Source: Bacteroides fragilis (GTDB taxonomy: Bacteria; Bacteroidota; Bacteroidia; Bacteroidales; DTGW01). Taken from it: a stretch of DNA of 64,000 bases. Below the pieces are notes generated by a model. The model did no database searches. It had not been told where the DNA came from and worked only from the letters and a program-made list of their open reading frames with translations. A program made the translations under genes and the position numbers. The first letter of the stretch is position 1; the number at the start of each line of letters is the position of its first letter. The stretch spans positions 62,001 to 126,000 of the forward strand of contig CAMDBI010000001.1 in the NCBI GenBank assembly GCA_945889005.1, in the 5' to 3' direction. This document shows positions 24,914-52,727 of this stretch, piece after piece.

Positions 24914-25843
24914 ATGAATATAAGAATTGAAAAACTAACCAAAAAATACGGTGTTCACAAGGCAGTCGACGATATTTCGTTCGAAGTGAAGACCGGTGAA
25001 ATTGTTGGTTTTCTAGGTCCCAATGGAGCCGGAAAAACCACTACCATGAAAATCATTACCAATTATTTAGCATCCGATGGTGGCGATGTTTTTGTTGGCG
25101 ATCTTTCGATTCGCGACAATGCCGATGCTGTGAAACGCAACATTGGTTACTTGCCAGAGAACAATCCATTGTATTACGACATGCCTGTCTTGGATTATCT
25201 TGCATATTGTGCGGCACTTCAAGGAGTCGAAAAATCGAACGTACAGAACCGTGTTCGCGAAATGGTAAGGCTTACCGGGCTCAATGCCGAAAAACACAAA
25301 AAGATTGGAGAATTGAGTAAAGGTTATCGTCAACGTGTAGGCTTGGCGCAAGCCATGATTCACGACCCAAAAGTGCTTGTACTTGATGAACCTACCACCG
25401 GATTGGATCCTAACCAAATAGTAGAAATTCGCCGTTTGATTCGCGAATTGGGTCGCGAAAAAACCGTAATTCTTAGTACGCATATACTACCCGAAGTTGA
25501 AGCTACCTGCGATCGAATTTTGATTATAAATAAAGGTAAAATTGTTGCCGATGGCACCGCCCAATCGTTGCGCACCCAGTCGCAAGGACAGGAAATTTTA
25601 ACTGTTAAAATAGAAGATGGCGAAGTAAACACCATTTATGACGCTTTGCAATCGCTGTCGACTGTAGGTATTGTCGATTTTATGGATCGAAGCAAAAATC
25701 GTTTCGAAATACAAAGTCGTTCCGGACTTTCGGCCAAACGCGATGTGTTCAAACTCTGTGTCGAAAAAGGCTGGGTACTTACCGAACTTGCAGGTGTCGA
25801 AACACGTTTAGAAGATATCTTTAGAGATTTAACGGTAAATTAA
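24914..25843 (+). CDS. gldA: GldA, ABC transporter ATP-binding protein for gliding motility
   Basis: The 309-residue ATPase has Walker A GPNGAGKTTTMK (about residue 35), the signature LSKGYRQRVGLAQAM, and Walker B VLVLDEPTTGLDP. The C-terminal extension after residue 220 is typical of GldA. GldA with GldF and GldG forms an ABC complex linked to gliding and Type IX secretion in Bacteroidota. I chose ATG 24914 because the earlier ATG at 24884 lies inside the promoter. gldF follows after a 113-bp gap filled with heptamer repeats. Confidence 0.92.
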   Translation: MNIRIEKLTKKYGVHKAVDDISFEVKTGEIVGFLGPNGAGKTTTMKIITNYLASDGGDVFVGDLSIRDNADAVKRNIGYLPENNPLYYDMPVLDYLAYCAALQGVEKSNVQNRVREMVRLTGLNAEKHKKIGELSKGYRQRVGLAQAMIHDPKVLVLDEPTTGLDPNQIVEIRRLIRELGREKTVILSTHILPEVEATCDRILIINKGKIVADGTAQSLRTQSQGQEILTVKIEDGEVNTIYDALQSLSTVGIVDFMDRSKNRFEIQSRSGLSAKRDVFKLCVEKGWVLTELAGVETRLEDIFRDLTVN

Positions 25844-25845
25844 TC

Positions 25846-25908
25846 GTGGACAGTGAACCGTGAACCGTGAACCGTGGACCGTGAACCGTGGACCGTGGAC
25901 AGTGAACC
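25846..25908. repeat. Tandem heptamer array, nine units of GTGAACC/GTGGACC
   Basis: Nine consecutive 7-nt units fit without a gap: GTGGACA, three GTGAACC, GTGGACC, GTGAACC, GTGGACC, GTGGACA, GTGAACC. The array begins 3 bases after the gldA stop. A second heptamer block of another sequence follows at 25918. Confidence 0.95.
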
Positions 25909-25917
25909 GTAAATAAA

Positions 25918-25945
25918 TTAGTAATCAGTAATTAGTCATTAGTAA
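25918..25945. repeat. Tandem heptamer array, four units of TTAGTAA type
   Basis: Four 7-nt units: TTAGTAA, TCAGTAA, TTAGTCA, TTAGTAA. It lies 10 bases before the gldF ATG and may overlap its ribosome-binding region. The same heptamer recurs at 45971 (reverse) and 52692. Confidence 0.85.
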
Positions 25946-25955
25946 TTAAAATAGT

Positions 25956-26681
25956 ATGAACTCAATTTGGATCATAGCAAAACGCGAACTCAATGCGTAT
26001 TTCGATTCGCTTATAGCCTATTTCATGTTAATATTGTTTTTGGGCTTTAGTGGATTTTTTACCTGGCTTTATGGCAACGATATATTTTTGATCAATCAGG
26101 CCACATTGCAAGGATTTTTTGGCATAGCATATTGGACCTTGTTTTTCTTTATTCCGGCTATTACCATGCGTCTTATAGCAGAAGAAAAGAAGACAGGAAC
26201 TATAGAACTTCTTTTAACCAAATCTATAACCGACCGACAAGTGATACTTGGAAAATTTTTTTCGGCTGTTTTACTCATTGGAATTGCATTGGTTTGCACC
26301 CTTCCTTATGTTGTTACAGTTGCTTCGCTCGGAAACCTCGACAACGGAGAAGTTATAAATGGTTATATCGGTTTAATGCTTATAAGTGCAACATATATTA
26401 GCATAGGTATTTATGCAAGCAGCATTACATCGAACCAAATAATTGCTTTTCTTTCGGCATTGTTTATCGGGCTTATGTTTCACATTATATTTGGTGTTAT
26501 ATCGAGCAATTTAACAGGTTTTGTCGGCGAATTATTTAATATGTTAAGCGTTTCGACACATTTCGAAAGCATTCAACGAGGTGTAATCGACAGCAAAGAC
26601 CTGGTATATTTTATAAGCATCATTGTTTTGGGTCTTTTTATGGCCGAAGTGAGCCTTTCGAAACGAAAAATTGCCGGGTGA
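25956..26681 (+). CDS. gldF: GldF, ABC transporter permease for gliding motility
   Basis: The 241-residue protein has six membrane helices and the ABC-2 permease pattern. The N-terminal IAKRELNAYFDSLIAYFMLILF and the loop AEEKKTGTIELLLTKSITDRQVILGKF are characteristic of GldF. It should pair with GldA as ATPase and GldG as accessory subunit. Its stop is followed by a second GTGAACC-type heptamer array. Confidence 0.92.
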   Translation: MNSIWIIAKRELNAYFDSLIAYFMLILFLGFSGFFTWLYGNDIFLINQATLQGFFGIAYWTLFFFIPAITMRLIAEEKKTGTIELLLTKSITDRQVILGKFFSAVLLIGIALVCTLPYVVTVASLGNLDNGEVINGYIGLMLISATYISIGIYASSITSNQIIAFLSALFIGLMFHIIFGVISSNLTGFVGELFNMLSVSTHFESIQRGVIDSKDLVYFISIIVLGLFMAEVSLSKRKIAG

Positions 26682-26688
26682 TAAAAAC

Positions 26689-26737
26689 GTGAACCGTGAA
26701 CCGTGGATCGTGAACCGTGGATCGTGAACCGTGAATC
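26689..26737. repeat. Tandem heptamer array, seven units of GTGAACC/GTGGATC
   Basis: Seven units fit exactly: GTGAACC twice, GTGGATC, GTGAACC, GTGGATC, GTGAACC, GTGAATC, then a degenerate GTGGAAT. It starts 8 bases after the gldF stop and resembles the array at 25846. Confidence 0.95.
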
Positions 26738-26818: not shown

Positions 26819-28333
26819 ATGAAAAATAAAGCAAGCATAAGCATAGCATTGGTTGCACTTATAGTGTTGGTAGCCAATCTAATTTCGCTCGATTTCTTTT
26901 TTCGGATCGATCTTTCTGAAAATAAGAATTTTACTTTGAGCAAAGCCACCAAAGATATTTTGAAGAATTTACAAGAACCAATTACTATAAAGGCATATTA
27001 TTCAGAGAATCTTCCTCCCGATATAGCAGCTGGAAGAAAGAATATGAAAGACATGCTCATAGAGTATACCAATATTTCGAATGGAATGTTTGTGTATGAA
27101 TTTATCAATCCAAATGTCGATGAACAAACCGAGGCAGAAGCACAACAAAAACGTGTACAACCAGTAATGATCAATGTGCGCGAAAAAGACCAGATGAAAC
27201 AACAGCGCGCTTACATGGGTTTGGTCATTTCTATGGGCGAACGCGAAGAGGTTATTCCCTTTCTGAATCCTCAAAAATCGATAGAATACGAAGTAACAAA
27301 GGCAATTAAAAAATTAACAATCGAAAACAAGCCTGTTGTTGGACTTTTACAAGGACATGGAGAGCCCGGTTTGCAAGAAATGCAACAGCTTTATTCGGAA
27401 TTGACAATTCTTTACGAAGTAGAGCCTTTGACTTTGACCGATACAACAAGCATTCCTGACCGAATAAAGTCAATTGCAATTATTAGACCAAAAGATACCA
27501 TTAATGAAACTCAATTGGCTCAATTAGATGGATTTTTGAATAAAGGAGGCAGAATATTTGTAGCACTTAACAGGATTGATGCCGATTTGCAGAATCAGTA
27601 CGCTCAACCACAAAACAACAGGTTCGAACAATGGCTTTTGTCAAAAGGTATTGTTGTAAATCCCGATTTGGTTATCGATATTCGTTGTGGTGCCGTACAA
27701 GTTCAACAGCAACAAGCAGGTTTTAGCTTTGTAACCAACGTAAATGTTCCCTTTATTCCTGTTGTTTCAAACTTTAGTAAACACCCGGCAGCTAGTGGTT
27801 TAGAGGCAGTTGTATTGCCATTTGCTAGTAGCATAAGTTTCAATGGCGATTCGTCGACGAGTACCTTTAAAAGTATTTTGTTAACTTCAGAAAAATCGAA
27901 TGTTATGTCTGCGCCTATGTATATGGACATTGGTCGCCAATGGACAGAAGCCGATTTTACAAAAAAGAGTTTAGTGTTGGCAGCCAGTATAGAAGGCAAA
28001 AACAATATGGGCAATAACTGGAAAATGATTGTAGTAGGCGATGGCGATTTTGTGGTAAATGGCGCTGGCGAACGCAGACAACAATTGTCGCCCGACAATA
28101 TAAATTTTGCGGTAAACAGTATCGACTGGCTTTCGGACGATACCGGTTTGGTTGAGTTACGTACCAAAGGCGTTACATCGCGTCCATTAGATACTATAGA
28201 AGATGGCACAAAAACATTTTTGAAGTATTTGAACCTCTTGTTGCCAATTTTAATAGTGTTGGGATATGGTTTTTACCGTTTCCAAAGAAACCGATCGATA
28301 CGTATGCAACGATTGGAAGAAAACTATGCATAA
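26819..28333 (+). CDS. gldG: GldG, gliding motility ABC transporter auxiliary protein
   Basis: The 504-residue protein has an N-terminal membrane anchor (about 6-24), the family start DLSENKNFTLSKATKDIL, a large extracytoplasmic domain and a C-terminal membrane helix (YLNLLLPILIVLGYGFYRF). These features match GldG of the uncharacterised ABC-transport accessory family. The internal GGRIFVALNRIDADL and VVGDGDFVVNG segments are typical of its ABC-type periplasmic part. It follows gldF with only a heptamer array and a short A-rich stretch between. Confidence 0.92.
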   Translation: MKNKASISIALVALIVLVANLISLDFFFRIDLSENKNFTLSKATKDILKNLQEPITIKAYYSENLPPDIAAGRKNMKDMLIEYTNISNGMFVYEFINPNVDEQTEAEAQQKRVQPVMINVREKDQMKQQRAYMGLVISMGEREEVIPFLNPQKSIEYEVTKAIKKLTIENKPVVGLLQGHGEPGLQEMQQLYSELTILYEVEPLTLTDTTSIPDRIKSIAIIRPKDTINETQLAQLDGFLNKGGRIFVALNRIDADLQNQYAQPQNNRFEQWLLSKGIVVNPDLVIDIRCGAVQVQQQQAGFSFVTNVNVPFIPVVSNFSKHPAASGLEAVVLPFASSISFNGDSSTSTFKSILLTSEKSNVMSAPMYMDIGRQWTEADFTKKSLVLAASIEGKNNMGNNWKMIVVGDGDFVVNGAGERRQQLSPDNINFAVNSIDWLSDDTGLVELRTKGVTSRPLDTIEDGTKTFLKYLNLLLPILIVLGYGFYRFQRNRSIRMQRLEENYA

Positions 28334-45964: not shown

Positions 45965-45970
45965 AATATA

Positions 45971-46019
45971 ATTACTAATGGCAAATAATTAATTACTAAT
46001 TACTAATGACAAATTACTA
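45971..46019. repeat. Tandem heptamer array, seven units of ATTACTA/ATGACAA
   Basis: Seven exact 7-nt steps: ATTACTA, ATGGCAA, ATAATTA, ATTACTA, ATTACTA, ATGACAA, ATTACTA. This is the reverse complement family of the TTAGTAA/TTAGTCA arrays at 25918 and 52692. It begins 7 bases upstream of the ruvB start on the minus strand, in the divergent gap. Confidence 0.88.
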
Positions 46020-46119
46020 ATAGAAATAAAATGAGATTCAAAGTAAGTAAGTAATGAACCAAAAGTACAATATTTTTCAATCACTAAAAACAAAGGGAAC
46101 AATTTGCAAAACTTTATGT

Positions 46120-52652: not shown

Positions 52653-52691
52653 CACCGAAATAAGACTAAAGACAAAATATCTATTTTTTCA

Positions 52692-52719
52692 TTAGTAATT
52701 AGTCATTAGTAATTAGTCA
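52692..52719. repeat. Tandem heptamer array, four units of TTAGTAA/TTAGTCA, in the tRNA-Arg leader
   Basis: TTAGTAA, TTAGTCA, TTAGTAA, TTAGTCA alternate exactly. It lies between the promoter and the tRNA, 8 bases before the tRNA 5' end, so it is part of the primary transcript. Confidence 0.9.
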
Positions 52720-52727
52720 TTTATTCT

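Follow-up and report, generated by a model that had tools for sequence, protein, structure and literature searches.

The window, a 64,000-nt stretch of DNA, contains three successive genes on the forward strand, encoding a gldA-like ABC ATPase (24914..25843), a gldF-like permease (25956..26681) and a gldG-like protein (26819..28333). The first-pass annotation had named them gldA, gldF and gldG. Their products do match the GldA, GldF and GldG models (TIGR03522, TIGR03518 and TIGR03521), but the scores of 381.4, 221.3 and 229.2 bits were below the curated cut-offs of 402.6, 288.5 and 389.85, respectively, so "gld-like" is the safer name. An array of nine GTGRACM units (array 1, 25846..25908, forward strand) starts 2 nt past the TAA stop codon of the gldA-like gene (25841-25843) and reads outward from it. 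The units follow each other in the order GTGGACA, three times GTGAACC, GTGGACC, GTGAACC, GTGGACC, GTGGACA and GTGAACC, and they vary only at positions 4 (A or G) and 7 (A or C), with all nine heptamers in register. Behind the linker GTAAATAAATTA (25909..25920, forward strand) lies array 2 (25921..25948), in which GTAATCA, GTAATTA, GTCATTA and GTAATTA on the forward strand represent TAATKAC units on the reverse strand. The reverse strand reads outward from the start codon of the gldF-like gene, which is 7 nt away. Four TTAGTAA-type units had been described at 25918-25945, and in that register the sequence does read TTAGTAA, TCAGTAA, TTAGTCA and TTAGTAA. The period was also said to be unbroken, which holds within each array but not between arrays 1 and 2, since the 12 bases of the linker are no multiple of 7 and shift the register. 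Arrays 1 and 2 are the two outward-reading halves of a single insert at the gldA-like/gldF-like junction, which is the plain case of such an insert, with GTGRACM running out from the stop and TAATKAC running out from the start.

A twin of array 1 follows the next gene: seven GTGRAYM units (array 3, 26689..26737, forward strand) begin 7 nt past the gldF-like stop and likewise read outward. Two more TTAGTAA-type (GTMATTW) arrays were found in the window, one in a divergent gap (45969..46021, reverse strand) and one, at 52688..52722 on the forward strand, that is among the few not adjoining a gene, its neighbours being 231 and 341 nt distant. These last three arrays were absent from the first-pass annotation. 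Fixed-lag runs, defined by a length of 30 or more compared positions and an identity of 80% or higher, numbered five at lag 7 and also occurred at lags 14, 21 and 28; otherwise a single run was found, at lag 15. Twenty first-order Markov versions of the window gave no run at lags 5-11, and the nine-unit array, exact and in register as first described, is thus beyond Markov chance. The arrays contain sub-repeats of 14 and 21 bases, which look like the product of block slippage.

We searched the source genome (3.26 Mb in 62 contigs, 99.42% complete), which its gld-like genes suggest to be that of a Bacteroidota member, for three successive units of each family. GTGRAYMx3 gave 190 matches and GTMATTWx3, whose unit on one strand is TAATKAC on the other, gave 103, with no match for either backward control; the matches overlap, so the arrays are fewer. 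A first sample of 464 kb, partly guided by hits, contained 49 period-7 arrays as opposed to 0-5 for the other periods from 4 to 13. Combined with a second sample of 400 kb picked regardless of hits, the 864 kb contained 65 period-7 arrays and 0-9 for the other periods. The second sample alone adds 16 arrays, and its density, roughly one array in 25 kb, is the figure to prefer. Period 7 therefore stands well above other periods in the genome scan, and not at background level. Most arrays belonged to two families, 29 being GTGRAYM-like and 23 GTMATTW-like (52 of 65), where random heptamers of the same composition would give 22%. Only eight of the 49 lay mainly within open reading frames (ORFs) of at least 120 aa, though such ORFs cover 87% of the sample. 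Exact 7-base head-to-tail units at many, mostly extragenic sites are the properties of dispersed intergenic heptanucleotide repeats. Intergenic DNA overall showed no period-7 excess (0.318 at lag 7 and 0.318 at lag 8), so the arrays are local features. An 8-base family (TTTCACAT / ATGTGAAA) often adjoins TTAGTAA-type arrays (L214, L073, L221 and L228).

The distribution over contigs was uneven. Based on 59 GTMATTW arrays merged from the listed GTMATTWx3 places, nine contigs (C4, C6, C7, C10, C11, C12, C19, C20 and C22; 880 kb) carried no GTMATTW array, with 15.9 expected. Contamination was rejected as the reason, because tetranucleotide usage agrees between the two groups of contigs (r 0.998).

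The arrays were placed closely and one-sidedly with respect to genes. In the 1.10 Mb examined, the gene on the 3' side of a GTMATTW array was no more than 12 nt away in 42 of 49 cases. Uniform placement in the gap would give 13.0, and 20,000 simulations reached at most 23. Only 6 of 49 arrays were as close to the gene on the opposite side. When the 3'-side gene was antisense, with its stop facing the array, all 32 arrays abutted it; 15 of these start with the stop codon itself (offset -3), while four extend as far as the following TAA (-10), one to -17 and three to -24. The remaining ten of the 42 abutted a start. They come from 17 arrays with a sense right-hand gene (10 of 17 within 12 nt of its start, 1.9 expected), and the sense arrays end 4-7 nt ahead of many start codons. 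Of 20 GTGRAYM arrays that could be placed, 13 abutted the 5'-side gene, where 6.3 were expected, and three more arrays lay inside called ORFs. Furthermore, 18 of the 34 GTMATTW gaps that could be tested held a second heptamer array in their remaining sequence, versus 20 of 680 shuffles.

The strand of the arrays was examined in a set of 224 arrays collected at a looser threshold, from which 33 in ORFs, 4 at edges and 19 without a clear nearest gene were dropped to leave 168. Read away from the nearest gene, GTGRAYM was found 34 times outward versus 7 inward, and TAATKAC 46 times versus 7 with one tie. The other 73 arrays were outside both families, and 48 of them were purine-rich outward. With one vote per gene end, the outward strand was GTGRAYM or TAATKAC by 49 to 2 at stops and by 25 to 7 at starts, where the polarity is weaker, with four ends tied. 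Gene calling followed a simple ORF rule, and the gene ends of the cell-wall cluster described below were checked against homologues. GTGRAYM contains TGA on one strand only, so the ORF rule could bias its count at stops towards outward; in TAATKAC arrays both strands carry stops. The stop just outside a TAATKAC array was TAA in 6 of 8 cases read by hand, against a background of 70% TAA, and microhomology with TAA is not demonstrable from these figures. Priming of TAATKAC arrays on TAA would give the same picture as arrays that supply the stop themselves. A general selective advantage of stops in all frames was rejected, because the outward strand in an acidobacterial genome, GGTTCAC, contains no stop. 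Several conserved-looking proteins end in array-coded C-terminal tails, namely LLMTNY, TITNY, VMTNYK, LLITND and LLMTND (L199, L276, L234, L239 and L240); LLMTNY is the tail of MurC and TITNY that of MurG.

We compared the same junctions in four genomes of the same family (G001 to G004). The gldA-like protein showed 72-77% identity over all 309 residues and the gldF-like protein 67-73%. The gldA-gldF gap is 112 nt here versus 8, 40, 44 and 34 nt in the relatives, and the gldF-gldG gap is 137 nt versus 18, 126, 25 and 21 nt. GTGRAYMx3 had no match in any of the four genomes, and GTMATTWx3 matched only in G004 (six matches), which has a unit family in common with the source genome. The first-pass annotation had suggested that the array could balance the expression of gldA, gldF and gldG through RNA stability or translation. 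This suggestion is not supported, in view of the same unit families at dozens of unrelated junctions and of the four relatives, which keep gldA and gldF together without arrays. An RNA-based role found no support in the two window gaps either, which folded no better than their dinucleotide shuffles (z of +1.65 and +0.53). It is unlikely that the array serves to control the gld genes.

The mraZ-ftsZ cluster of cell-wall and division genes showed the same enlargement. Seven of its 11 junctions measure 73-249 nt here versus -11 to +47 nt in the relatives, and the other four measure -16 to +15 nt versus -23 to +49 nt; the murE-mraY junction was omitted from the 11 because of a called ORF in between. 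MurC and MurG were confirmed, and the names of the other genes in the cluster are inferred from gene order. The enlarged gaps are rich in heptamers, which are TAATKAC units next to the stop and pyrimidine-rich next to the start. The ftsL-ftsI gap (249 nt) is partly non-heptameric and also holds an inverted-repeat element. In the ftsA-ftsZ gap (163 nt, L276), purine-rich heptamers are followed by pyrimidine-rich counterparts that, by eye, look able to form a long hairpin. G004 has a TAATKAC insert of its own at the end of murE, and G001 to G003 have none in the cell-wall cluster. The short junctions in the relatives, together with the separate insert in G004, indicate that the inserts are recent and lineage-specific.

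Similar units also occur far outside this family. GTGAACCx4 was found in named records of at least about 13 phylum-level groups (80 loci among the matches listed, at least 117 stretches), and the variants in the arrays differ from genome to genome. Horizontal transfer was rejected as the cause of this wide spread, because the variants differ and the choice of unit is not common even to the order. Among 393 genomes of the order, GTMATTW was present in 20 versus about 43 for its backward control, and GTGRAYM in 31 versus about 9 (controls by hand count). One member of the order (G334) had 41 backward and no forward GTGRAYM matches, being a genome with another heptamer family. The GTMATTW arrays of other order members abutted genes less strongly (7 of 22 on the right and 4 on the left, several loci coming from one array). 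The polarity in other phyla was counted on small numbers, with loci chosen by exact pattern and for the GTGAACC/GGTTCAC family only. The outward strand was GGTTCAC by 13 to 4 over all 14 loci of one acidobacterial genome and by 22 to 8 over 17 picked loci, mostly desulfobacterial or from unplaced proteobacteria, and it was GTGAACC by 5 to 0 over five gemmatimonad loci. These counts do no more than suggest that each genome may have its own polarity, with a direction that varies. A Desulfohalobiaceae contig (L094, 4296-4498) carries four short GGTTCAC arrays that recur every 43 to 84 bases or so.

Several kinds of short bacterial repeats resemble these arrays. Calothrix and other heterocystous cyanobacteria have heptanucleotide repeats known as short tandemly repeated repetitive sequences (STRR); they are likewise short, tandem and scattered over the genome, but their unit sequences probably differ from ours. 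Phase-variation simple sequence repeats are tandem repeats able to slip, and the present arrays differ from them in their longer unit and their location at housekeeping-gene junctions, with no bias to surface genes among the few genes named. Rehm 2015 (PMC4692102) describes dispersed and mostly intergenic GGGNATC and GGGGA(C/T)T heptamers in Xanthomonas and Nostoc, which formed G-quadruplexes with a preference for four units and whose function was left open. In that study, the heptamers were under-represented between divergent genes, lay on the coding strand near stops and on the non-coding strand near starts, and were closer to the 5' neighbouring ORF whatever its direction. Our arrays are similar to those described there in unit length, dispersal, mostly intergenic location, scarcity between divergent genes, choice of strand near stops and starts, and one-sidedness toward an ORF irrespective of its direction. 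However, GTGRAYM and GTMATTW contain no run of three Gs and so lack the G-tract of the unit, and two families in one genome and inserts with an outward array on both sides set the present repeats apart from that account.

MacGregor 2015 (PMC4679880) reports TAACTGA direct repeats from marine Beggiatoaceae, some cyanobacteria and five Bacteroidetes hosts, and proposes that they regulate translation. As described there, they share with our arrays the 7-base unit, the intergenic location with many sets per genome, the orientation and the proximity to start codons. By inspection, however, our units differ from TAACTGA at two or more positions in every register, and our arrays lie mainly at stops (32 versus 10 for the abutting GTMATTW arrays), whereas the TAACTGA repeats lie mainly upstream of starts. 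Our literature search, older subscription papers excluded, found no published account of the GTGRAYM and GTMATTW families or of two-sided inserts. The closest known kind is the heptanucleotide repeats that are dispersed between genes in Nostoc, Xanthomonas and Beggiatoaceae.

We regard it as somewhat likelier to be right than wrong that the window insert is one of a set of lineage-specific heptanucleotide tandem-repeat inserts that fill gene junctions and originate at the DNA level. The arrays combine a period-7 excess, two dominant families, a location at gene ends, a fixed outward strand and near-absence from the relatives. In the proposed mechanism, 3' ends at a gene junction would gain 7-nt units for which arrays at other places of the genome serve as the template, the new arrays would then lengthen and homogenise through slippage of 7, 14 or 21 bases, and gene junctions would be the places where inserts are tolerated. 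The transcription-independent polarity, the inserts at near-closed junctions, the common families and the sub-repeats fit 3'-end extension followed by slippage. It is from polarity that we infer the extension step, by an enzyme that we leave unnamed; for gain and slippage, the analysis covered one strain of the species. A gld-specific function is not needed, and it is possible that GTMATTW arrays 4-7 nt before start codons acquired a later side effect on translation. The absence of GTMATTW arrays from nine contigs is unexplained by the 3'-extension model. Templating of the repeats by a telomerase or a reverse transcriptase was rejected, because an RVT_1 gene (PF00078) was found in none of the source genome and its four relatives; 3 of 14 controls were positive. 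No Ku gene was found in the same five genomes, which counts against end joining by Ku. A more ambitious version, which we put forward as speculative and consider unlikely, would have arrays grow away from the two genes of a junction through repeated additions of 7 nt to the 3' ends. The geometry would resemble that of a telomere, but existing arrays would be copied by an ordinary DNA polymerase. Repeat inserts would thereby come to divide whole operons, among them essential cell-wall genes overlapping in the relatives, and the polarity described by Rehm in Xanthomonas and Nostoc would reflect a process that bacteria have in general.

The same observations were weighed under other explanations. 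The arrays could be non-autonomous mobile cassettes, MITE- or REP-like, with heptamer ends and inserted whole by a transposase in trans, as the outward arrays at both ends of many inserts and three Y1_Tnp genes in the genome would allow. The end families, however, combine freely (GTGRAYM/TAATKAC, TAATKAC/TAATKAC and GTGRAYM/GTGRAYM), the only non-heptamer sequence common to the flank matches inspected is a separate inverted-repeat element in two flanks, none of the three Y1_Tnp loci has a period-7 array, and GTGRACMx4 is rare in viral contigs (23 stretches), a result with which transport by phages was set aside as well; we think a cassette improbable. Slippage in place from a chance seed, tolerated because the sites are intergenic, agrees with the 14- and 21-base sub-periods and with the frequent formation of heptamers by slippage in bacteria (Mrazek 2007, cited by PMC4679880 and PMC4692102). 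Replication slippage had also been offered in the first-pass annotation, and as a way of lengthening arrays it keeps its place through the sub-repeats. As the sole process at each site, it leaves unexplained the dominance of two families, which had already weakened it, the outward pointing and abutment, and the inserts where relatives have little or no intergenic DNA to act as a seed, and it is unlikely. A regulatory element that binds a protein or the ribosome and sets the translation or stability of the neighbours would account for the sense GTMATTW arrays just before starts and has a precedent in the proposal for TAACTGA repeats in Beggiatoaceae (PMC4679880). Yet most arrays lie at stop codons, their strand is fixed to the gene end and not to transcription, the relatives run the same operons without arrays, and the window gaps lack RNA structure, which makes regulation unlikely. 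Least credible is a hairpin or terminator function of the RNA downstream of genes. Some gaps with inverted heptamer arrays do fold strongly (ftsA-ftsZ, by eye; L073 and L223), but z was below -2 in only 15 of 53 array gaps versus 24 of 60 control gaps and was positive in both window gaps; we rejected RNA structure as the function on these grounds.

In many bacterial genomes, no long simple repeats are commoner than those with a unit of seven bases. On the questions of how they spread and why the unit has seven bases, the present genome offers a handle, with two unit families, an outward rule at both gene ends, clean and short counterpart junctions in relatives, and an essential operon. The present repeats are notable for outward arrays on both sides of an insert and for the essential operon that they have invaded, and they extend a kind of repeat that is known from bacteria but little understood. 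Should other phyla show the same polarity, for which there are hints only, the origin would be narrowed to a directional process at the DNA level, and the occurrence of such repeats at start and stop codons would be explained without regulation.

Two kinds of mobile sequence were seen in the course of these comparisons. RAYT-like Y1_Tnp genes are present at L219 (C8) and L220 (C13); the flanks of the C8 gene, read base by base, contain palindromic repeats instead of heptamers, and the arrays were not assigned to REP/RAYT elements because no period-7 array lies at the Y1_Tnp loci. A MITE-like element with the inverted ends CAATGTCGTTTAGT...ACTAAACGACATTG lies in or beside TTAGTAA-type arrays, at L063 (G000:C2, ~54.8 kb), at L231 (C21, ~57.9 kb) and in the ftsL-ftsI gap in L276, and it seems to have used the arrays as its target.
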